Origin: Imbricaverruca yamaguchii
Taxonomy: Eukaryota; Arthropoda; Thecostraca; Neoverrucidae
Length of the DNA: 64,000 nucleotides
NCBI GenBank assembly: GCA_034440575.1
Contig: JAOTOL010000414.1
Location: 1 to 64,000 of the forward strand
Direction of reading: 5' to 3'
In this document: in pieces, positions 1-16,269 of the stretch
Layout of the letters: each line of letters opens with the position of its first letter
Position numbering within the stretch: the stretch's first letter is position 1
The notes under the pieces: model-generated
What the model was told of the DNA's origin: nothing
Seen by the model: the letters and a program-made list of their open reading frames with translations, nothing else
Database searches by the model: none
Program-made: the position numbers and the translations under genes

Positions 1-1310
1 CCAAGTAAACGGCCAATGCCCTAGTCAGTGACTTAGAGAACGATATTTGGCTACCGTAGTCGGCTAAACGCTTGAAGCCCCAGCATAGTGATTTAGACGA
101 CAAAATATCCTTGTCACAATTAGCAAACCGTTTGAAATGTTCAACTGAATGCCCAGTGAGGCCCGATCCACCTGAGAAAGGACGCTTTTTGTTTACTCAC
201 CAGACGACGATCGTCCTCTTAGAAGATTCAAATTCATGTTGATTCGTCGTACACCGGATACGATACGGAAGTAAGACGTGTCGAAATTAAGCAATATAAG
301 GTTAGTGCATTCGCTAAATTTGTGGACAAACTTCACGCTGGAATGATGTCAAACACAAAGAAACAAACACATTTCCTTAGAAAAACGACGCCATGATGGC
401 AAGCATGAAAAAACAATCGGTGAATTATAAATCGATGTTTGTAAACTGATCATGCGTGCATGTCCTAAGTGAAAGAACGCATGCTGTAGGTGGAATGTAT
501 ATGATGACCAAAATCAAAATCATTCACATGACATGTACATACTCATCCACGAACCGAACGGTTCCCCACTATCCAGAAATCCCTTCAATCTCCCCACCCC
601 TCCCACCTGGGGAAGACGAGCTGACTTCACTCGATCGACAGTCCAGCATGCACTTGACCTAATTATCCAGCTGGACCAGTTATTCCGGCTCAAGTCACGA
701 CAAAGAACAAGCCTGCCCGGACAGCGGATTGTGGCAAAGGCAAGGCGGTGCATCTGCAGCTTTATCAGAGCGCCTGCTCACGCGGGCTGGTCAACACTCT
801 CTTTGAAGTACCGCATGACTATGACCTTACTGGTGGTGACGCGAGCGTCACTATATTACGGGGAAGGTATCTCGCGGTGCAAATTGTGAGTATGACTCGA
901 GACCGTTCTGGATGTCGCATCAACCTGATACGTGCATTTTGCTTAACATGAACTAATATGGATCATGTGTCAGAGTCACCTCAAAGACTAACTCGGGTAT
1001 AAATGTCTTGGAGCTTGCCACTGTAATTCGTTCAGTCTGCCATTTGTATCGTGAGTGAATGTATGCGCGATGAACGGGAGCATTTGGGCGTAGATAACAT
1101 AGCGAATGTCAAAATTTATCTGGAAAGTAAATTCGAGATTTAGGACAATGCCCTGTGTTTTAGCGAAGTTCGTATCGGACTCTTTTAAAATGAATTTGAC
1201 TCCCATGTATCTTGGGAAGCGAGCTCTGAGTGGATCCCAGGCACTTTGTCGGCACCAACTGGCGTACTGATCTCAGCAGAGGACCCAACAGCCCCGGCCG
1301 CCGTCGCACT
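1..1310. other. No recognisable gene
   Basis: Unremarkable, moderately AT-rich DNA. Open frames here are short (under 120 codons), overlap on both strands and show no domain or splice structure I can defend. Confidence 0.5.
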
Positions 1311-1377
1311 TGTTATGCTTAGTTTGCATTTGAGGGGCGCATCGACTGCAAATGTCATATACCTGTTATGCTTAGTT
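1311..1377 (-). mobile_element. Minimal LINE 3' tail insertion with 14-bp target duplication
   Basis: A 39-bp segment (1,325-1,363) is bounded by two perfect copies of TGTTATGCTTAGTT at 1,311-1,324 and 1,364-1,377. Read on the minus strand, the segment carries GTCGATGCGCCCC followed by CTCAAATGCA. This matches the last few dozen bases of the three long LINE copies in the window (3' ends near 34,917 plus, 44,752 minus and 57,065 minus). The size of the duplication equals that of the two LINEs with both ends (44.7-49.8 and 57.1-62.7 kb). I read it as a target-primed insertion that stopped almost at once. Confidence 0.7.
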
Positions 1378-1819
1378 CAGCATGAACTATCGCAGCGAGC
1401 CGACGGTCGGCTGGCCAAGAATGTCACGGCATGACACGCCGGGTGTCGTCGTTGTGACACGTGTCATTATTGTGTCATGCGACACTGTAGAGCAGAGGGC
1501 GAGCGGGCGGTCGGAAGTGACGATGGCTGGCGCCTCCCTTCGGGGGTGTGGTGCAATAGGTGTTGTCAGTCGTTCAGACCAGGGGTGTTGCCCCCCCTCC
1601 TGGCCGACCTGTACCCCTCTCGGGCGGGCGGCAGGCCCTCGAGCCGTCAGTCACCCTGAAACAGTCGGTGAGGATGGATGTACGCGAGAGATCGGGTTGA
1701 GAGATGGAGTTGTTTTATCGAGTCTAGTGAGATCTAGCCTGTTAAAGATGTGGGGCCCGGGCGCTGTCAGGCAGATCGCGACTTACCAACAACGTACCTA
1801 CAAGTCGCCAGGGGGTACG
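1378..1819. other. No gene seen
   Basis: GC-richer spacer between the LINE tail and the 41-bp minisatellite. Nothing supportable on either strand. Confidence 0.45.
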
Positions 1820-4236
1820 CGGTGTGCACCAGGAACCAGGATGGACTGTCGCTCTGGAGTAGACGGGCGGTGTGCACCAGGATGGACTGTCGCTCTGGAG
1901 TAGACGGACGGTGTGCACCAGGATGGACTGTCGCTCTGGAGTAGACGGGCGGTGTGCACCAGGATGGACTGTCGCTCTGGAGTAGACGGGCGGTGTGCAC
2001 CAGGATGGACTGTCGCTCTGGAGTAGACGGGCGGTGTGCACCAGGATGGACTGTCGCTCTGGAGTAGACGGGCGGTGTGCACCAGGATGGACTGTCGCTC
2101 TGGAGTAGACGGACGGTGTGCACCAGGATGGACTGTCGCTCTGGAGTAGACGGACGGTGTGCACCAGGATGGACTGTCGCTCTGGAGTAGACGGACGGTG
2201 TGCACCAGGATGGACTGTCGCTCTGGAGTAGACGGGCGGTGTGCACCAGGATGGACTGTCGCTCTGGAGTAGACGGGCGGTGTGCACCAGGATGGACTGT
2301 CGCTCTGGAGTAGACGGACGGTGTGCACCAGGATGGACTGTCGCTCTGGAGTAGACGGACGGTGTGCACCAGGATGGACTGTCGCTCTGGAGTAGACGGA
2401 CGGTGTGCACCAGGATGGACTGTCGCTCTGGAGTAGACGGACGGTGTGCACCAGGATGGACTGTCGCTCTGGAGTAGACGGGCGGTGTGCACCAGGATGG
2501 ACTGTCGCTCTGGAGTAGACGGACGGTGTGCACCAGGATGGACTGTCGCTCTGGAGTAGACGGGCGGTGTGCACCAGGATGGACTGTCGCTCTGGAGTAG
2601 ACGGACGGTGTGCACCAGGATGGACTGTCGCTCTGGAGTAGACGGGCGGTGTGCACCAGGATGGACTGTCGCTCTGGAGTAGACGGGCGGTGTGCACCAG
2701 GATGGACTGTCGCTCTGGAGTAGACGGGCGGTGTGCACCAGGATGGACTGTCGCTCTGGAGTAGACGGGCGGTGTGCACCAGGATGGACTGTCGCTCTGG
2801 AGTAGACGGGCGGTGTGCACCAGGATGGACTGTCGCTCTGGAGTAGACGGGCGGTGTGCACCAGGATGGACTGTCGCTCTGGAGTAGACGGGCGGTGTGC
2901 ACCAGGATGGACTGTCGCTCTGGAGTAGACGGGCGGTGTGCACCAGGATGGACTGTCGCTCTGGAGTAGACGGGCGGTGTGCACCAGGATGGACTGTCGC
3001 TCTGGAGTAGACGGGCGGTGTGCACCAGGATGGACTGTCGCTCTGGAGTAGACGGGCGGTGTGCACCAGGATGGACTGTCGCTCTGGAGTAGACGGACGG
3101 TGTGCACCAGGATGGACTGTCGCTCTGGAGTAGACGGACGGTGTGCACCAGGATGGACTGTCGCTCTGGAGTAGACGGGCGGTGTGCACCAGGATGGACT
3201 GTCGCTCTGGAGTAGACGGGCGGTGTGCACCAGGATGGACTGTCGCTCTGGAGTAGACGGGCGGTGTGCACCAGGATGGACTGTCGCTCTGGAGTAGACG
3301 GGCGGTGTGCACCAGGATGGACTGTCGCTCTGGAGTAGACGGGCGGTGTGCACCAGGATGGACTGTCGCTCTGGAGTAGACGGGCGGTGTGCACCAGGAT
3401 GGACTGTCGCTCTGGAGTAGACGGGCGGTGTGCACCAGGATGGACTGTCGCTCTGGAGTAGACGGACGGTGTGCACCAGGATGGACTGTCGCTCTGGAGT
3501 AGACGGACGGTGTGCACCAGGATGGACTGTCGCTCTGGAGTAGACGGACGGTGTGCACCAGGATGGACTGTCGCTCTGGAGTAGACGGGCGGTGTGCACC
3601 AGGATGGACTGTCGCTCTGGAGTAGACGGGCGGTGTGCACCAGGATGGACTGTCGCTCTGGAGTAGACGGGCGGTGTGCACCAGGATGGACTGTCGCTCT
3701 GGAGTAGACGGGCGGTGTGCACCGGATGGACTGTCGCTCTGGGTAGACGGGCGGGCGGAGGACGCGCCTGGGAACGGGCGGTGTGACCAGGATGGACTGT
3801 CGCTCTGGAGTAGACGGGCGGTGTGCACCAGGATGGACTGTCGCTCTGGAGTAGGACTGCGGCGGTGTGCACCAGGATGGACTGTCGCTCTGGAGTAGAC
3901 GGGCGGTGTGCACCAGGATGGACTGTCGCTCTGGAGTAGACGGACGGTGTGCACCAGGATGGACTGTCGCTCTGGAGTAGACGGGCGGTGTGCACCAGGA
4001 TGGACTGTCGCTCTGGAGTAGACGGACGGTGTGCACCAGGATGGACTGTCGCTCTGGAGTAGACGGACGGTGTGCACCAGGATGGACTGTCGCTCTGGAG
4101 TAGACGGGCGGTGTGCACCAGGATGGACTGTCGCTCTGGAGTAGACGGGCGGTGTGCACCAGGATGGACTGTCGCTCTGGAGTAGACGGGCGGTGTGCAC
4201 CAGGATGGACTGTCGCTCTGGAGTAGACGGACGGTG
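1820..4236. repeat. 41-bp minisatellite, about 58 units
   Basis: Near-perfect head-to-tail units of 41 bp built around GGTGTGCACCAGGATGGAC and TCGCTCTGGAGTAGACGG. Most units differ only at one position, GACGGGCGG or GACGGACGG, which gives a two-letter variant code along the array. Homogeneity breaks only at about 3,720-3,860, where units carry single-base losses and a scrambled stretch (about 3,739-3,780). Because 41 is not a multiple of 3 and the minus strand of the unit has no stop in any frame, that strand is open for 800-920 codons in all three frames. These are repeat artefacts, not genes. Confidence 0.97.
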
Positions 4237-4682
4237 AGTTTCCGTCGGCAGCCATCAGCGCGAGTTGCGTCGCCGCCCGATACCGTTCGACCGCCAATCA
4301 GTGACGGCCCCAGTAGCGACGCCTCCGTCGGATCACGGCAACAGCAGGTGTGCCCTTTGAACCTGGTTATTCGCGAACTAGACGATGTCTGAGTACACTG
4401 TATCACTGGCGTCACAGGAGATCTGGGCCCGGGCAGTCGAGCCCAGCATAAACAACCACCGTCTTTTAAAAGGACACGTACAAAACAACAAGGGAGATAG
4501 AAAACCAAAGGCGTGCTTCTGGCACTCGTCCCCCACAAACAGATACTATACTATTGGCTTCTCTAACCGCATTGCGAGTGCGGATATCACAACCTGTACA
4601 ATCCTCAACCGCGACATCGACACCATATAGCAAGGCCGTTGCATGGTGAGGGAAGGGGCGGTTGCACCCTCTTCCCATCTCG
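4237..4682. other. No gene seen
   Basis: Spacer between the 41-bp array and the 3' end of the fucosyltransferase-like gene. It may hold that gene's 3' untranslated region on the minus strand. I see no clear polyadenylation signal I would rely on. Confidence 0.4.
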
Positions 4683-6336
4683 CTACCACCCTTTACAGGG
4701 GATGTAGGGCGAGAGCGGTGTGAACGGTGTGCGCTGTTGCAAGGGCACCTGGTCACAGGTGCGGTAGTGCAGCAAAGTCATGGGCAGGCCGGAGCGCGCC
4801 AGCCCGTCGGCCATGAAGTGTTCGTTGCCCGAGTAGCCGGTGGGCCCGATCACGTGGCCGCCCGCCATGAACGCCGCCATGTATCCGAACGTGCCGTACG
4901 ACACGACCGTGTGGTTGCACAGACTGAGCGTGGCCATGTCGACGGCGGCGGCGTCCAAGTGCGCTGGCACGGCGCCCACGTCGACCGCGTGCACCACGTC
5001 GTGGCCGAGGATGTTGGCACGGCACCACGCCGGGTCGTCGCTGGCGACGATGAAGACGGCGCGGCGGTAGCGGCGCCGGCACAGCGACAGGGCGCACTGC
5101 AGGTACTCGGTGCCCACCAGGTGTCTGTCCATGCGCGTTTGCAGCCATTTGGCGTAGTCGGTGCGCCGCACGTGCACGCTAATGAAGGAGCAGGCGGCAG
5201 GCGGACAGGCGAGCAGGGCGGCGGCGGCGGTAAGGCGTGCCGCCGCCGCCGCCGTGGTCGCCGCCCGCCACGGGAACTCGGCCAACAGGCGGCGGCGGTG
5301 TCGCGCAAAGTGCGCGATGTCGCACGGCCCGCCACCCACGCACACGGCCCTGCCGGCCGCCAGCGGCCTGGACATCACCGAGGCCGACGGCGAGGCGGCC
5401 GGCCGGCCGGCACCGCACGGGCAGCACGTCCAAACTGCGGCGTCCTGAAAACAGGCGGTTGAAGTAGGTGGCCATCCCCGGTGCGATCCAGGCGCTGATG
5501 TTGTTGAAGGTGTCGCGGTGCAGTGTCCACAGAGTGAAGTACTGACACAGCTTGTTGCCCAGTCGGCCGCCCGGGTTGACAGTGAGCAGCGGCGGTGACG
5601 GACATACGGTGGCCACTTTCTGGCGCACTGGTGACTGCGGCAGTAACGCCACCGATCGTGACGGCGTGCTATTCAACGGCCGCAGCGTTGTTGGTGTCAC
5701 TGAGGGTGTCGATGTTGACGTCGGCGGTGAAGTCGGTGCCGCTGAAGAGTGTGATCGCAAGGTCATCAATGACAATGGTAGAGGCGAGGAAGCGAGTTAA
5801 AGATCCGTTGACGATGCTGCCGGAGGCGCTGAGGTCACGGCGGTTCTAGATAGCACTTTCGATGTCGTGATCGTGGAGGTCACGTTCTTACTAGCAGTAC
5901 TGCTTGCTGTCGTGCCAACATGTATGGTTGGCTTGTCCCCAGACGTGTGATTCCATCCTCTGGGGGCAGGTTTACCATGAACACTTCCACTGGGGGCGGG
6001 ACTGCTATGGACCCGTCCACTAGTCATGGCGCTGCCATGTACTTGTCCACTGGCGGTGGGAAGCGTTTCGGCCGTTTCGGGCGGGGCATCCCTGCTGGTA
6101 GCTCCAGCTCCACCTCCAACACCAGACGCAACTCTTCCGCTTTGACTCGACGACGTCGGCCCGCCGCTGTGTTCGGGCTGAGCTGCTGGCCTTGCGGTGG
6201 AGAGCCAGTGGTCGATACCAGCGCCCCTGGCGGCCAGTGGGCGCACCAGTCCGATCGGCAGGTGCATGACGACGTAGAAGAATACGAAGCTTATCAGCGC
6301 GAGGCCGACGACAAGTCGAAGGCCGTTCCGACCCAT
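4683..6336 (-). CDS. Alpha-1,2-fucosyltransferase-like (GT11), two exons with one frame break
   Basis: Family role: Golgi type II enzyme moving fucose from GDP-fucose onto galactose of glycans. Start ATG at 6,334-6,336 (MGRNGLR), then a hydrophobic anchor at residues about 8-31 and a long Ser/Thr/Pro-rich stem. An in-frame TAA at 5,797-5,799 is avoided by a 150-bp intron (5,742-5,891; donor GTAAGA, acceptor CTCTTCAG). Its phases match exactly, so I call exons 6,336-5,892 and 5,741-4,683. The catalytic part shows GGRLGNKLCQY, then HVRRTDY (GT11 motif I), SDDPAWC, and CNHTVVSYGTFGYMAAF (the conserved C-terminal motif). The N-terminal catalytic half lies in one frame and the HVRRTDY half in the next. 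The switch falls at about 5,340-5,400, in or beside a GGCC run. This could be an assembly indel, a real frameshift, or a tiny 46-nt intron (GTGCCG to TCCAG). Family assignment is firm; whether the locus is active is not. Confidence 0.8.
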
Positions 6337-7416
6337 TGACCTGGAAGTGAGCCTGTCCGTCGGTTAGCAGGTCACGTGAGAGACCACGAAATATCGTATA
6401 CCGTAATGATATTTGGTCATATCGCGTTTTATATGGCACCTTCGGGTATTCGGCCTATGCTGTTTATTATGAGCACTTTAAATTTATATCATATCCGTCT
6501 TAATAATCAATCCTGATTCTGGTCGTGCAGTTAAAATCAGAAGACTTGCGAGTAATGTCGACCCTTCCCCTCCCCTCCTCTCCCCACCGTCACCATTTGA
6601 GTTGGCGCGCGCTACACATTGCCTCCCGAGCATAGTGCACCAGTCCATGCGGCGGATCAAGCAGTAGACTGCCATGCAATCGCCGATCTAAGGCGGCTTT
6701 TCTCAGCATTTTGCGAACTCACCACCCCCTGTAGTCAGGTGTGAGCAGTCAAGCGTCCGCCCAATCTGGTTACAGAGACTACGGTTTCTGCACTATAGTT
6801 GCTGGACTACACTACAAACAAAGAATATGCATGGAATTCATAGTCAGCCAATGTTTTGTACAAACTGAACTGAATGATACATGCTTATACAATAAAATCA
6901 GCCAACATGGATGGAGTTCAGTGCTAACACGCGCACGTCCGGGGGGGGGGGGGGCAGATATCTGCCCCCGTGGTTTTTCCGAATTTGCCGCCATACTAAT
7001 CGGGTTATCAAGGCCAAACCTCGCTTGGCTGCTCATTAGTCTTTTCCGCATATTCTCATTCATTGAAACTCTGGGTGATCTTAGGTCAGGACACCAGGTC
7101 AGGCGAAGTGACCCAACGTCCCTCGGAGTTCTAGGTGGCATAACTTCCACAATAATTGGGCGATTGATTTCAAACTTATAACACGTCACGATCTCACCCA
7201 GGACCATAATATATATATCTAGGTTTTTCGTAGCAGCTAGGGGCTGCTTTTTGTGCTCAACTTGTTTAAATTGAAGAATATTATCTGTTTTCGAAAGTTA
7301 TTTTCTGGGTTTCCATAAACAGTCCCTCCCCCGAACAGCGTGACATACATCATATCGTAGGGCTCCCTGAGGGTGAGTACACATTTGCTCCGACTTTAAG
7401 TACGAAACCCACTCGC
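6337..7416. other. Upstream region of the fucosyltransferase-like gene; no other gene
   Basis: No second gene is visible. The stretch contains a run of 14 G (6,941-6,954) that merges into a perfect 20-bp palindrome at 6,950-6,969 with centre CAGATATCTG. No promoter motif could be assigned with confidence. Confidence 0.4.
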
Positions 7417-7655
7417 CATATCACCCATATGGTATCACCCATATGGTCGGTATCACCCATATGGTATCACCCATATGGTCGGTATCACCCATATGGTATC
7501 ACCCATATGGTCGGTATCACCCATATCGGTATCACCCATATGGTCGGTATCACCACACCATGGTATATGGTATCACCCATATGGTATCACCCATATGGTC
7601 GGTATCACCCATATGGTATCACCCGATGCGGTATCACCCATATGGTGCGGCACGC
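7417..7655. repeat. Short-unit satellite, GTATCACCCATATG core
   Basis: Alternating 14-bp (GTATCACCCATATG) and 18-bp (the same plus GTCG) units, about 14 in all, with a few degenerate units near 7,550-7,570 and 7,620. The core contains the palindrome CATATG. Open frames across it simply follow the periodicity. Confidence 0.95.
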
Positions 7656-7988
7656 TTCAGCATTGCATACATCACCACGGCTTCATCAGGAAAGACTTCA
7701 AATGAAGTTCGTGGAATGAAGTGATTTCATCTGAATTGATTTGACATGATGTGAAATGGAATGGGGGCCCGGCCAAGTTGAAGTTGAGCTTCATAGTTTC
7801 ATACATGTGGTGATCGGCACTTCGCTATATAAAATATCCACGGCGAATCTGAACTGGAGAAAGTAATGCTGGATTGTGATTCCTTGAAATGCTTGGATGA
7901 CGTCCTACCAAGCAGGACAGCAGTTCCTGAATTGTTCAGAGTCGTCCCATTGCATATTGCATGAGCATCCCCAAGAGAAGTACTTAAG

Positions 7989-8190
<202 letters not shown>

Positions 8191-8564
8191 TGACACGTGT
8201 AATATATCATTCACATAAGTGGTCCAACTGAGTCCATTGAACTGTTGGTGTGATAACCGAGGTGAGGGAGTACACATATTCTAAACATTCTGGTCCTGGA
8301 AACACTTTTTGTGCTTTCATGTTGCAAAGAAAGTCCAGAAATGGATGTTCACTTTGAACTACAGAGGTGCTCTAACAGACCTCACGAAACTGGCGCTAAT
8401 TATTCCTTAATGTTCTTAAATTTTAAAGCATAAATGCAGTCTCCCAAACATCCACATCAACTATATACCACTTATCTACCACTGCTATTGTCAACCATTA
8501 ACCTTCGATGAAACAATTTACCATCATCCAATTCCAATGTATTTATTTTAGTCACAGGCCGCTC
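8191..8564. other. No gene seen
   Basis: AT-rich spacer between the TA microsatellite and the next minisatellite. No coding or RNA signal recognised. Confidence 0.4.
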
Positions 8565-9031
8565 ACCTGCATAGGACACCAGTCACCACTGCTCATCTAT
8601 ATGTGCCCCACCAGTCACCAATGCTCACCTGCATAGGACACCAGTCACCACTGCTCATCAATATGCCCCCGCCTCACCTGGGACACCAGTCACCACTGCT
8701 CATCTATATGTGCCCCACCAGTCACCACTGCTCATCTATATGTGCCCCACCAGTCACCACTGCTCACCTGCATAGGACACCAGTCACCACTGCTCATCTA
8801 TATGTGCCCCACGCCCCACCAGTCACCACTGCTCACCTGCATAGGACACCAGTCACCACTGCTCACCAGCACTAGTCACCACTGCTCATCTATATGTGCC
8901 CAGTCACCACTGCTCATCTATATGATCACCACTGCTCGCCTGCATAGGACACCAGTCACCACTGCTCATCTATATATGCCCCACCAGTCACCACGGCTCA
9001 CCTGCATAGGACACCACCCACCACTGCTCAT
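8565..9031. repeat. Minisatellite, left half of a split array
   Basis: Degenerate units made of two modules: CACCAGTCACCACTGCTCATCTATATGTGCCC and CACCAGTCACCACTGCTCACCTGCATAGGA (each described by its parts). The array stops abruptly at ...CACTGCTCAT (9,031), where the 9,032-13,717 transposon begins. It resumes in the same orientation at 13,718. Confidence 0.9.
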
Positions 9032-9233
9032 TAGACTGCGTCACTCATGATACTTTTTTCAGAGAGCATGGTACCCATACGATTTTATCATGCTCCGAAC
9101 ACGTGGAAACAACATGACACTTTTCATTTCATCTTAATTTTAACCCCCATCCCGCTCCAGGTGAGCTAAGTTGAGCCTATCCGCTAACACAGGCGACATC
9201 AGCGCCTCTAGCGTGAAAGTTTCAAACTAATGA
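9032..9233 (+). repeat. Left (sub)terminal inverted repeat of the transposon
   Basis: Pairs with 13,535-13,717 in inverted orientation. Conserved blocks keep their order (GATTTTATCATGCT, CACGTGGAAACAA, CAGGCG, CAGCGCCTCT) with many substitutions and small indels, which indicates an old insertion. Confidence 0.8.
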
Positions 9234-9990
9234 GTATTTCTTTATTCCGAGGGCTACGGCCATTCTCGATATACACAAAAGGACACTTGATCATGTTTTT
9301 AGTGTTCGTCAGCATTAATGTTATGAAGAGATTCCTAACATAATGCATTGCAGACCATAATAAGGCTTCCGGGGGACCAAACCCTGCTGAAATCCTGCAG
9401 TATCCGGTGCCGTAGTCTGCTGTTGTCATTCGCTCAGGCCTTTGTAAATTTATGTGGCTTATGATGTCTGTGGGGTGGTGATATTTGACGGATGCTGAAG
9501 TCAAACCAAGTGATACCGAAAGGGCACCATCGGTCTCGATGCTGGTACCGTCATTTGACCGTTCGGATTTTAACTGGTTAGCACAGCATCCTACAGCAAC
9601 TCACTGGTCCGAGCTGGAAGCCCCTGACTGATTCGCGGTTGGAGTCCAGCTCTGGCGTGAGATTTGTCTCCAACTATCGCTATGGAGGAATTGAGGTTCA
9701 GGCACAAAAAGGCCCAGTTGTGTCCGACCTTTGCATATGATAAAAAATCAAATCATAAGTTTGATGTCGAACTCAATACCTCTTACCACCGATAACTTCA
9801 TACGAATGCACGTTTCCCAATATCTATGTGTTTCTAATACCGTCTCCTTGACAGGCTCTGATCGTGTCGTGATCCTGAAGTGAAGACTGAAGAGTGAAGC
9901 CAGACGAAACACTTTTTTTAGGACCTCCAAAAAATTTACCCACTAACCAGCTGCCTACCAACAAAGACGTAATCAAGCCAAATTAGGCTA

Positions 9991-12900
9991 ATGCATGGCG
10001 AAAAGGTAAATGTGCGTGCAAACGTCCTGTCCGATAGCATTTTCAATCCAGTGGCTACGATGGTGAAGAACATTTTGGATACCGAAGGAATACCAACGCA
10101 GCAGCTAAAGGGTGTCCAGCGTAAAGTCGCTGACTGTTATAAGCAATGTCAGAAAAACAACACAACCAAAAATGCTGACCGCAAAGACAAGGGCTCTGCC
10201 TATAAGACCAATGAGGGATATTTTGACAGACTTTGACATTGTCCTCTGCCGTCGCAGAGACCTGCGCCACTGCGGCTGCCCGCGGGACAGCCAGGGTCCT
10301 GCGTAGATTTTTCCCTAGTTTTGGTTCATGACACACTTTCTTAACCTCCCCTGATCCACCCTTCCCCCAAGTGAGGTTCATTTCCTCGAACGTAGGTTAT
10401 TTCTCAGGGACCAGAGGAAAGGACGCAAGATGCTGTTCGGCGTAATCGACCGGCTGGAGAGCGCCAGACGGCAGACTGCGGCGCTCCGGAGCCAGCGGCA
10501 GGCCAGGGACGGGTGCCGCCGGCTACGTCCGCCGACTCCAGCGACCACCATGAGCCGGCTTGTCCGCCGACCCCAGTGAAGCCGGCTTGTCCGCCGACCT
10601 CAGTGGAGCCGGCCCGTCCAGCGGCGACGAGGCCGGACCCAGCGGCGAGCAGGCTGTTGCCGGCGACGAGCTGTGACTCCAGCCCAGCTGACGATGGCCC
10701 CCAATCTGACGTCGACTGGGACGACGGTGACGACGATCCGGCTGGCGGAAACCCTAACACGCTGACCAACACGGCCCTGGCTGCGGACCGGTTCGGGCTG
10801 TCTAACCGAGCGGTGGCTGCCGTCGTCAACGCTTTCCAGCTCGACATCGGACGGGCTTCTGCTGCAAATCCCCGGCTGCTGCTGTATCCCAAGGTGTGGC
10901 GGGAGCGGCACAGGGTGCGGCAGGCCTCTATTCAGTCCAGGGCCGACAGTCATGGCGACAGTCTGAGCACCCTCTATTTCGACGGCCGCAAGGACCACCA
11001 CACCAGCGTCGGCCGATCCACCGAGTGCTCCGAGGAGCATATCGCCGTTGTGGCTGAGCCCGGAGGTGAATATCTCACGCACATTATCCCGCAGTCCGGC
11101 CGGGCCGTCGACCAGGTGCGCCAGCTGGTCGCCGTCGCCACCGCCCACGGCGGCGATGTCCGGGAGCTCGGCTGAGACGGCGCCGCCGTGAACACGGGAC
11201 CAGCCGGCGGCGTATGTCGCCTCTTTGAAATAACCACAGAGCATTCTGTGCACTGGTTCGTGTGCCAGCTGCACTTAAACGAACTGAATCAACGTGAAGT
11301 GTTCAAGCAGCTCGACAGGAAGACCACCGGGCGCAAGTCGTTCACCGGACCGCTGGGTAAGGCCGTGGTCGGCGAGATGCACCACCTGCCGGTCGCCAAG
11401 TTCAGCCCGGTCGCCGGCCACGTGCCGGAGATATCGGAGGCAGTGGCTGACGAGCTTAGCACGGACCAGCGTCTGCTACACCGGCTCACAGTGGCCGTCC
11501 AGACCGGTCACATCGCAGAGGAGGACGCCAGGCGACGGATCGGACCCGTCAACCACGCCAGGCACGAGTACATGCTCTACCGACATAGCAGTGCCACATA
11601 AAAAAATCGTGATGATATATTTTGTTATATTACTATAGAAATGCTTTATTTTATTGAAATATGTAAACAGGGATATATAGTTAAAATATGAAACTCGAAT
11701 GACATTACAATTACACATTGAAGTGTTACATTGGCATGTACCAGCTGTGTGTCATAACTCATAACAATTGGATATAAGCCAGATACATGGTCATGATCCG
11801 CAGGTGGCTCACTCTGGGTGCGAGGCTCCTTCGCCTCTACATCGCCCAGACATCACCATCGGCCTAGCTCTCCCAGATCGTCAGTACCTGGTGGCCCCCA
11901 CGTGCCGATGTGGTTTTTCATCAAACGCGGTTGCAGCAACGGCGCCAAGAACATGATGCAGAGCGTGAAACTGCTGCGGACGCTACCGAGCCGACTCTAG
12001 GACTTCGGGCTAAAAAATCGTATCGTTCTGTCGTCGTGGACGACAACCACGAACGGGGACTTTTGGCGACCACATTTCCATATCATTATAAATATTATAT
12101 GTGAAATCATATAAATTGTACCTTACTATACATAAAATTGACTACGTCACGATATCCTGTCAAGGTACGCAGGATTGAAACGAATCGGATTGGGCCGGGA
12201 CTGGAAATGTCACTCCGTGCAGACCTCTAGAAATGTGCACCGTGCAGACCTCTACCACCCACCGCCACGCTACCATTTCTTCATTCCCATCGTACGCTGT
12301 TGGTTTCTAGTATCTAGTATCTAGTACGCTCAGCGGCAAAAAAAAAGACTCAACGGCAACAAAGTATCGTCGAGACAACTATTCCATCGTTCAGACGACC
12401 GCCGACGATAAAATTGTCTCCCGTTTAGCAAGAGCCAATGGAATTACTCGCCCGGTACCACTTTATGCTCGATGGCACGGTACGGAAGTACCCAACTATG
12501 GTATACTCAGCGGCTTTGGAGGCAAGCGACTAGACCACGGGTACTAAAACAACACTAGACCTACGTTAAGTAATGAATAATTTATAACATTAGCTGATTT
12601 TTTTCAATTCATTTCATTGGACAACCACGAAACCATTTTTTTTAGCCCTGGGTCACTTCATACGACCAGTGATGCAGCGAAACAGCTACTGGTGCCACCC
12701 GGAGTCGGTACTGCTGGGGCTGGCGGCGGACGAGGACCTGTAGGTGCGCGCCCGGGCCGTGCTGGCCATCCAGCGGTGCCGGCAGCAGCCAAGGGAGGTG
12801 CTCCGTCCGTTTGCCCTTCCGACAGTAAACTTCGCTGCCTCCGACTTCACGCAGCTCTTCGACTGGAGCACTGCGCCCATCACGGTGTCGCCTCTCTACA

Positions 12901-13118
12901 CAAGCCTGAGTGACGCAGAGATTGAGGGCATCCGGGATGTCCCGCTGGCCGTGGACGTCTATCCGGTACACACGGTGGCGGTGGAGCGGGCGGTGGAGGT
13001 GGCAACGGAGGCGGCCAGCGCGGTGGCTGGAGAGACGCAGCGGCACGGCTACATCTGCAACCGCCTCAGGCACCGACAGCAGCTGCCAGCTGTTATCAGC
13101 AAGAAGTCTTTTATCTAA
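9991..13118 (+). pseudogene. Decayed transposase-like gene of a conserved uncharacterised invertebrate family
   Basis: Five collinear pieces resemble, by my recall, a widespread uncharacterised protein family of cnidarians and arthropods. (a) 9,991-10,232: an N-terminal block with ILDTEGIPTQQLKGVQRKV; a frameshift near 10,232 moves the frame to FDIVLCRRRDLRH. (b) 10,740-11,172: DRFGLSNRAVAAVVNA and LYFDGRKD, then EEHIAVVAEPGGEYLTHI. (c) After an in-frame TGA (11,173-11,175): DGAAVNTGPAGGVCRL and HWFVCQLHLNEL, to 11,601. (d) 11,910-12,000: MWFFIKRGCSNGAKNMMQ. (e) 12,650-13,118: RPVMQRNSYWCHPESVLLG, a TAG at 12,741-12,743, then a tail ending HGYICNRLRHRQQLPAVISK. At least three lesions make it non-functional. 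The 12,000-12,645 gap ends in a T-run plus AG and may be an intron. Its position between inverted termini suggests it was the element's transposase; that is inference. Confidence 0.65.
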
Positions 13119-13534
13119 GTCATGGCAAGTGTCACTGTGCCTCTCGTGCATTTCGTCTCGTGTGAAGTGCATCTCGTGCCGAACTCGCCGCGATGTGTGA
13201 CCCCATGTCTGAATACATGCGTCATACATGTCACCTGATCGCATACCAGTGGTTCTTAAGAGTTAAGAGTGAGGATGGGTTTGAGAGAAAATCAAGCCTA
13301 GTATGCAAATCAGTGAGCTCATCGGTTTGCCTGATGCCGCATTCAGAGACCACCGCCCGCATGACTACAGTGCAGTGGTTTCATTTTGCCTGAAACAGAG
13401 ATTATTCTCTGAAATACACATAATTTTGACTCTATTTATAGTGTTCATGCCGAGGAACACTTATAACGTGGTCACATGTACATTTCGAACATTGAAAGAG
13501 TGGCTGTGGCTGCCAGACGAGAGGAGGAATCGTT

Positions 13535-13717
13535 AGTTTCAAGCTTGCACGCCAGAGGCGCTGTTGCCGCCTGTGTTATGAGACGGCAAATATTTTACTC
13601 GCTCGGAGCAGGATGGGAGTTAAAATTAAGAGAACATTAATGGTGCCATATTGTTTCCACGTGGATACAGCATGATAAAATCATATCACCATGCACTGCG
13701 ATTGATGACACAGCCTA
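13535..13717 (-). repeat. Right (sub)terminal inverted repeat of the transposon
   Basis: Inverted counterpart of 9,032-9,233; outermost bases on the minus strand are TAGGCTGTGTCATC. It ends directly at the 8-bp duplication CTGCTCAT. Confidence 0.8.
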
Positions 13718-13955
13718 CTGCTCATCTATATGTGCCCGCTGTCAGCGGCCGCGGCGAGTCCGAGGGGGGGGGCTCATCTATATGTGCCCGCACCAGTCAC
13801 CAATGCTCACCTGCATGGGTCACCAGTCACCAATGCTCACCTGCATGGGTCACCAGTCACCAATGCTCACCTGCATGGGTCACCAGTCACCAATGCTCAC
13901 CTGCATGGGTTACCAGTGACCAACGCTCACCTGCATGGGCCAGTAGTGAACATGC
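13718..13955. repeat. Minisatellite, right half of the split array
   Basis: Begins with CTGCTCATCTATATGTGCCC, the expected continuation of the unit cut at 9,031. It then becomes five regular units of about 29 bp, CACCAGTCACCAATGCTC plus ACCTGCATGGGT. These units are more homogeneous than those on the left, so this side probably expanded after the transposon inserted. Confidence 0.9.
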
Positions 13956-13995
13956 ACATCATTCAACACCAGGGAGTGGTTTTCGGAAGCTTTTG

Positions 13996-14465
13996 TGCGA
14001 CACCGTAATTATAGTAATTACGATGTCTTAAGCATCGTAATTACGAGATTATAGTTATCATGCTTACTAACCCATATTTCCCGTGATCATGACATCAGAA
14101 TTATGAAACTTAAGCCACCTTAATCTTCGTCATCACAACATCGCAATTATTGCCCTCACCACATCGTAATCCTCGTCATCACAACATCGCAATTATTGTC
14201 CTCACCACATCGTAATCCTCGGCATTACAACATCGTTTTTAATCTCCTCAACATATCGTAATTTTCGTAATCGCTATATCGTAATTGTCGTCCTCACAAT
14301 AAATTAATTATCGTCATCACTTCATCGTAATTGTCGTCCTCACAATATATCAATTATCTTCATCACAACATCGTAATTATTATTCTCACCACATCGTAAT
14401 CCTCGTCATCACTGCATCGTAAGTATCGTCCTCACCACATCGTAACTATCGAAGTTATGCAATTA
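13996..14465. repeat. Degenerate CATCGTAATTATCGTCCTCAC-type tandem repeat
   Basis: About twenty degenerate copies of a roughly 20-bp motif alternating CATCGTAAT(T/C) with CGTCATCACAA or GTCCTCACCA. No coding signal. Confidence 0.85.
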
Positions 14466-14820
14466 TCATCTGTCTCTGCTCACCTGCGGTGTCGGCCGGG
14501 GCGGCCGTTGCAATGAAAACCGAGGAGATCTCTTGTGTGTCTCGCGAATGCTCGACGCCACTACGGCGGCTCCCATGGGCAGCTGCAAGCTGGCAGGCGG
14601 ACGACTATTCTCAGATAGTTGTGGGTTAACTCAAAGGGATGGAGTGGGTGGGCACAGGGAGGCCAAGCAACGGGGTGAATGGATGCAAAGGGACTGGGCA
14701 GACGATGAGCCCAAAGGGACGGGGGTGGGCAGATGGCCCCACAATGACGATGAAGACGGACAGGACAGAGAGGGAGGTGGCTTGCCGCGGGGTTCGGCCC
14801 GTGAGGACCGGGTCACGTCC
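14466..14820. other. No gene seen
   Basis: GC-rich spacer before the 11-bp satellite. A long plus-strand frame opening at 14,533 runs on only because the satellite is stop-free. Confidence 0.4.
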
Positions 14821-15325
14821 GGTAACTGGATTGGATCACCCTGGACCACAGTTGGACCACAGCTGGACCACAGCTGGATCACAGCTGGACCACAGCTGGA
14901 CCACAGCTGGACCACAGCTGTACCACAGGTGGATCACAGCAGGACCACAGCTGGACCACAACTGGACCACAGGTGGATCAGAGCTGGACCACAACTGGAC
15001 TACAGCTGGATCACCCCTGGACCACAGCTGGATCACAGCCGGACCACAACTGGACCAGAGCTGGACCACAGCTGGACCAGAGCTGGACCAGAGCTGACTA
15101 CAACTAGATCACCCCTGGACCACAGGTGGATCACAGCTGGACCACAACTGGACCACAACTGGACCACAGCTGGACCACAGCTGACCACAGCTGGACCACA
15201 GCTGGATCACAGCCGGACCACAGCTGGACCACAGGTGGACCAAACTGGCACAGCTAGACCACAGCTGGACCACAGCTGGACCACAGCTGGAACAGCTGCG
15301 TGACCACAGCTGGACCACAGCTGAA
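14821..15325. repeat. 11-bp satellite, CTGGACCACAG
   Basis: About 45 units of CTGGACCACAG with simple substitutions (ATC for ACC, AGAG for CACAG). Each junction gives a CAGCTG palindrome. The array is open on both strands (33 bp = 11 codons), so it makes long Asp/His/Thr/Gln-rich or Val/Trp/Ser-rich frames that are not genes. Confidence 0.97.
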
Positions 15326-15552
15326 CGATAGCAAGCCAACTGAGATCGCTGCCAACTGTACGGACACCAACCCGCACCACCACCAGAACTGCCGCGACTG
15401 TTACGGCGCACGCGCCGCGAGTCACCAGGCCCCTCGGACCGACCCCCCCACTCCGCCTCATAGCATGTTTGCAAGTGTTGCCCGGGTGTTTATGCCTGCA
15501 GTGTTTGACCAGCGCGCTCCATTGCCGACTGGTTCGCGGTTAGGTGAGCACT

Positions 15553-15965
15553 TGTGACCAAATCGACCAATCCCTGGCTTGTACCCGGTCAACTCATATT
15601 TACATAGGCTGTGCTTGGTTGTGCAACACGTGTAAGAATGGAATATCTTCCAGCTGCTTGTTTTTCCTACAGTCACTTATTGTTTAACGAGCCATTTCCT
15701 GGTTTTAACTAGGATATAACAAGCCAGTGTGTAGGAAAACCAAAATAAATTTGTAAGCTTACCAACCGCTGGGTAGTTATCCCAGTAAACTAGCCAGGGA
15801 AGGGTTCGTTAAATGCGAGCGGCAGTAGGAAAAACCAGCAGCTAGTAGATACTCCATGGCTTACCAGAAGGAAGAACGAACACTCCGTGTTGCAGAACGA
15901 AGCACAGCCTACGCAAATATGCGTAGACTAGGTACAAGCCATGGATTAGTTGATCTGGTTTACAT
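15553..15965. repeat. Fold-back element with arms of about 170-200 bp
   Basis: Left arm about 15,553-15,721 and right arm about 15,769-15,965 are inverted copies at moderate identity, separated by a spacer of about 45 bp. Matching blocks, outside to inside, include CCTGGCTTGTACC versus CATGGCTTGTACC, TAGGCTGTGCTT, GCAACAC, GGTATATCT-like segments, GTTTTTCCTAC, and TTTAACGA..CCTGG. No protein is encoded. The RNA would form one long imperfect hairpin. Confidence 0.75.
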
Positions 15966-16269
15966 TGTGTGCCCTGATCATGTACATGGCATAACTTCGG
16001 ATATAATTAATTATGCCCTTGTACTTGTGCAGGCCGTGTTCTGCCCATTCACAACACACCTCATTAAACAAACCTTTGCATTGTGAAATGACTTGCTGCC
16101 TCCGAAGCCACGAGCTTGTGCGTGGTTTATTTAAGCCATTGGTGGTATATTTGGTTTTCAGTGGATATATCTGCACGCTGTGTTGCCGAATCGTTGGCGG
16201 TTTGGTGAGGTCCGTGGCGCTTACCGACCCTGACACTGGTGCTCGCCATGAACTTGGGCCGCCGCCGAC
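15966..16269. other. No gene seen
   Basis: Short spacer with no supportable coding or RNA feature. Confidence 0.4.

Follow-up and report, generated by a model that had tools for sequence, protein, structure and literature searches.

The P element makes 8-bp duplications, proteins of the Kyakuja-Dileera-Zisupton (KDZ) transposons carry cysteine clusters, and Hermes, a hAT element of the Ac family, forms hairpins on the flanking DNA. Excerpts of published work give nTnnnnAn as the target preference of Hermes (PMC10368747) and of hobo (PMC8961557), and 8-bp duplications for the KDZ members Zisupton and Dileera (PMC12730594). The element described here occupies positions 9032–13717 of a 64,000-nucleotide stretch of DNA, hereafter the window, from the arthropod Imbricaverruca yamaguchii (contig JAOTOL010000414.1 of assembly GCA_034440575.1). 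Most probably, at about 0.88, it is a DNA transposon of the cut-and-paste type with the mode of action of hAT elements, belonging by descent to a divergent hAT-like lineage, of which the window holds an inactive relic. Related copies have recurring ends, 8-bp duplications with a fixed pattern, a protein encoded inside the ends and, in some cases, uninterrupted frames. The initial annotation had proposed to tie an uncharacterised protein family to a cut-and-paste element with defined ends, and this is supported; the predicted fold, the target motif and conserved residues point in addition to hAT.

Ends, target-site duplications and copies elsewhere in the genome

The window copy is 4686 bp long, lies on the forward strand and is assigned to subfamily A, both of its ends recurring at five other subfamily-A places. 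Its outermost 12 bases, TAGACTGCGTCA from 9032 and the inverted TAGGCTGTGTCA ending at 13717, match at 10 of 12 positions, so that the inverted termini reported initially are present. The subterminal inverted similarity, originally put at 180–200 bp, is also present and is longer, about 330 bp per end: the left end (9032–9361, forward) aligns with the right end (13401–13717, reverse) with identity at 235 of the 339 columns aligned (69%), and the local score of 124 compares with a maximum of 47 among 300 random internal pairs of the element. Identical 8-bp copies of CTGCTCAT lie at 9024–9031 and 13718–13725 and, as had been noted, the same minisatellite flanks the element in the same orientation on both sides (8561–9031 and 13718–13941). 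The 21-mer at the right junction (13717–13737), the first base of which is the last of the element, is identical to intact array units of repeat family D4, and the two flanks plus one CTGCTCAT thus constitute a normal repeat unit. As CTGCTCAT belongs to that unit, the window can by itself only suggest a target-site duplication, the case for which rests on other copies.

The left 202 bases were searched against the host genome, which comprises 767 Mb in 1430 contigs. Of 141 candidates, 40 were scored as matches: nine, with the window included, at 90–100% identity and 31 at 75–78%. Regions around 12, and then 20 more, of these matches were examined, and 16 copies have both ends, six in subfamily A and ten in a sister subfamily B. 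The flanking duplication is 8/8 in 11 of these and 7/8 in three. The other two are L010, at 5/8 and with a sizeable insertion nested in it, and L035, whose duplication gives 1/8 in register and appears shifted by one base. Across the 16 copies, identity is 90% at a duplication length of 8 and 13–34% at lengths 4–7 and 9–12, and control pairs taken across copies reached 7/8 in 2 of 238 cases. One copy, L012, represents the window's own insertion on another contig, C351, because several kb of flanking DNA match on both sides; C351 (loci L012, L041 and L042) matches window positions 1–16113 through the element and its flanks, with the main blocks at 89–96%, and stems either from segmental duplication or from an alternative haplotype kept in the assembly. 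The counts omit L012 as an independent site, a false pair at L024, single-ended copies and stray left-end matches in L013 (+) and L018 (+). With L012 not counted separately, there are 15 distinct insertions, 13 with a duplication of at least 7/8. The shorter copies with 8/8 duplications, L011 (2477 bp) and seven of subfamily B (2830–3469 bp), are missing parts of the gene, either as non-autonomous forms or through later deletion.

Copies were also located from the protein. The closest annotated relative is from Amphibalanus, and an A. amphitrite homologue of 783 residues, P0020 ('uncharacterized protein LOC122385687'), gave 58 rows in the host genome, with 57 of 5334 candidates scored; the best rows span about 740 residues in a single frame. 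Uninterrupted frames, which the initial annotation had suggested looking for, are present: 16 of the 58 rows have no internal stop, one of these being a partial match. Flanks were checked for 12 rows (ranks 1–11 and 16; five stop-free), the ends being looked for in ten of them in short segments at the distance known from the first two. All 12 lie between TAGGGTGTGTCGCC and GTGACACACCCTA termini, exact or slightly varied, with the left terminus of the copy on C1356 obscured by an AT repeat. These copies constitute subfamily C, exemplified by C1353:1694707–1698459, which measures 3753 bp, is flanked by the duplication CTGCCCAT and has about 310 bp of inverted similarity at each end. Their duplications are 8/8 on C1353, C198 and C1311, 7/8 in six copies, 5/8 on C1393, offset by two bases on C1429 and unreadable on C1356. 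As the 12 copies come from the best-scoring matches and one subfamily, they are not a census. On C808, C1284 and C1429 (loci L049-L050, L053-L054 and L061-L062), three different sites, the right flank starts with CAG and the left duplication with CTG, a footprint-like change or chance.

With both searches combined, 22 of 27 distinct insertions have a duplication of at least 7/8, and the proposed 8-bp duplication is thus borne out at unrelated sites, the target in the window being itself repeated. The left copies at these 22 independent sites give the target nTGnnCAn: position 2 is T in all 22, position 3 is G in 16, position 6 is C in 19 and position 7 is A in 21. The Ac-family pattern nTnnnnAn fits 21, and Hermes shares both this pattern and the 8-bp duplication. 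The lengths of the window copy, L019 (4458 bp) and the C1353 copy are within the 2.5–5 kb range of hAT elements. Compared with the hAT terminal motif [T/C]A[A/G]NG, the left end begins TAGGG in all 10 paired copies of subfamily B and in 9 of the 12 of subfamily C; the paired subfamily-A left ends read YAGGC or TAGAC, and none of the six fits at the fifth base.

That the ends merely delimit a duplicated segment or satellite with a host gene in it is suggested by the minisatellite around the window copy and by the flanks shared with C351, but is hardly credible given the duplications at 22 of 27 distinct insertions and the 20 bases just outside them, which agree at only 24% between left and right in the 16 copies found from their ends. 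The termini recur at element boundaries and the protein lies within them: gene pieces detected with P0020 by tblastn are inside the ends in all 16 of those copies, with none in the flanks examined, and all 12 of the copies selected by protein and tested, of the 58 rows, are likewise inside ends. Within the host genome, neither of the refuting conditions set initially, termini that do not recur at element boundaries or homologues residing in non-transposon loci, was thus borne out. Duplications at so many sites document past mobility of the family.

Two further open frames were encountered at these loci. At L010, about 4.6 kb (4385–8981) inserted near the right end of the subfamily-A copy holds a stop-free frame of 352 residues. 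At L019, a stop-free frame of 1235 residues from position 666, upstream of the subfamily-B copy, resembles by eye, at the ends of the frame, the endonuclease/reverse transcriptase of a long interspersed nuclear element.

The transposase and its relation to hAT and other systems

Hermes was the best match, by both Foldseek and VIA-align, to two AlphaFold2 models of family members, and the predicted fold aligned to Hermes residues 136–609, including the RNase H fold and the helical insertion domain. Candidate key residues D, D, R, W and E are invariant in all 32 aligned sequences and come in the order of D180, D248, R318, W319 and E572 in Hermes, a comparison of order rather than of residue-by-residue structural equivalence. 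The glutamate of an HPE motif was at first taken as catalytic; it and the glutamate of PxxxxxxE are both invariant, and the latter is preferred because its spacing and place match Hermes E572, where Hermes also has P-x6-E-R. The distance from the second D to RW is 128 residues in P0020 versus 70 in Hermes. An N-terminal C-x-C...C-x-C, invariant but for one H in the 32 sequences (alignment A2; C138, C140, C144 and C146 in P0073), stands where comparison with Hermes finds a BED finger, and the inverted ends of about 310–330 bp contrast with the 17-bp terminal inverted repeats of Hermes.

A P-element-type transposon would share the RNase H fold and the 8-bp duplication, but is very improbable: Hermes, scoring 15.8 and 16.2 with a lower root-mean-square deviation, outranked the P element against the family models, and no THAP domain came up when 27 members were compared with Pfam at E ≤ 1, the set and threshold of all Pfam results given here for family members. 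Membership in KDZ, a group with 7–8 bp duplications, is improbable, if less so. The cysteines of the family recall those of KDZ proteins and the duplications are like those of Zisupton and Dileera (PMC12730594, in excerpt), but no KDZ model was among the Pfam matches, and both target pattern and fold point to Hermes. The exclusion of KDZ is not strong, as the fold lists contained no KDZ structure.

Against the assignment to hAT stands the result that PF05699, by which the hATC dimerisation region is recognised, is not among the Pfam matches of the family, the region being matched only structurally. No match was obtained to a BED finger, which is usual but not universal at the N terminus of hAT transposases. 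Pfam found nothing credible in the three fragments of the window copy or in the relatives (best E 0.0075, a zinc finger in 1 of 27), and a profile search of the PDB with the family gave two chance matches and no hAT, so that Hermes itself has no match at the sequence level. Ordinary hATs are nevertheless detected in the same genome by PF05699, at 150 scored places of 618 candidates, and none of the 58 family rows is within 5 kb of any of these. One, L069, has the motifs GTDNCATMMGGKAGFRKLL, CTCH, TRWLS and PHSIASVERAF where the family consensus has GCDGTAVNTGxKGGVIRLLE, CxLH, SRWLT and PCHTQAVER and so, by eye, resembles the family in motif order, in the wording around the second D and in CxxH, RW and P-x6-E. 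By hhalign, the family profile gave a weak match to L069, with a probability of 16% and the second D in register, and none to L070, a second ordinary hAT.

Fold, motif order and target choice make a common origin with hAT likely, short of proof by sequence statistics; the placement by descent, between a deep hAT clade and a sister superfamily, is provisional. Repbase or Dfam may, at somewhat under even odds, already list the family as a hAT, in which case it would be an ordinary subgroup that simply lacks annotation in protein databases; this explanation is compatible with a hAT-like mechanism and differs in the matter of novelty. The hATs of Repbase are diverse (hAT5, hAT6 and hAT7 in excerpts of PMC12730594), and the motifs of L069 look bridging. 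However, no source name given for a homologue says transposase, most being unnamed, and, judged by their titles, the seven publications in which any of four terminal 12-mers occurs deal with subjects other than transposons. A literature search, with Repbase and Dfam outside its scope, found no publication recognisable as describing the family. A separate animal superfamily sister to hAT is unlikely, though less so than membership in KDZ. It would combine a Hermes-like core with an N-terminal cysteine domain of its own for DNA binding, long inverted ends of the type TAGGGTGTGTCR and the target nTGnnCAn, and would have relatives from cnidarians to arthropods and possibly continued movement in the host genome.

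Viral sequences were also surveyed. A scan of viral contigs gave 79 pattern matches and no relative; a structure search of BFVD returned one row at E ≤ 0.001 (A0A8S5VNP6, probability 0.35), with the bracovirus protein O92526 at 1.2e-3. One Amphibalanus protein, P0089 (FJT64_013150, 1012 residues), joins a family transposase to PF14214 (source name Helitron helicase-like), which reflects either fusion in the gene model or the nesting of an element.

Proposed transposition mechanism

If the family does transpose as hAT elements do, a transposase of about 740 residues, with an RNase H fold, D-D-E residues and the helical insertion domain, would bind the inverted ends, presumably through its N-terminal cysteine region. 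Excision would proceed by D-D-E catalysis with hairpins on the flanking DNA, as in Hermes, and insertion across nTGnnCAn with an 8-bp stagger would duplicate the target. The family may still be active, and the genomic copies with uninterrupted frames offer material for testing hAT-type chemistry.

As the initial annotation stated, the family carries no functional name in invertebrates. An 'uncharacterized protein' family of animals becomes one of transposases with defined ends and target, and some invertebrate gene models and 'expanded gene families' may therefore need relabelling. A lineage present in many copies, in the host genome at least, escapes the Pfam hAT domain.

The decayed gene and other features of the window

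The gene in the window copy is decayed, as first described, with homologous pieces over about 9904–13112 (tblastn with P0020) and no single open frame in the list of open reading frames. The first coding part (9904–11562, forward; element positions 873–2531), itself broken, has the N-terminal cysteine region, both D residues and CxxH. The second (11802–13118, forward; element positions 2771–4081) runs from RWLT as far as PVHTVAVER, the motif that holds the candidate catalytic glutamate, and is split by a nested insertion, the last open frame being 12744–13118. The broken frame and this insertion leave the window copy non-functional. The insertion (648 bp, 12007–12654) has 11-bp GGGCTAAAAAA inverted repeats with ACTTC repeated at its sides. 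Six other copies spanning the site lack it (L009, L010, L012 on the duplicate contig C351, L013, L014 and L016), and no second copy of it was found among the loci examined. The copy alignment also revealed a 101-bp stretch (10300–10400) that found no aligned counterpart in the remaining copies of subfamily A, although about 25 bp are present in L012. Many further tandem arrays are present in the window, in addition to a very regular 41-bp tandem repeat at 1835–4236 (46.9 copies, with 99% matches over 1835–3754).
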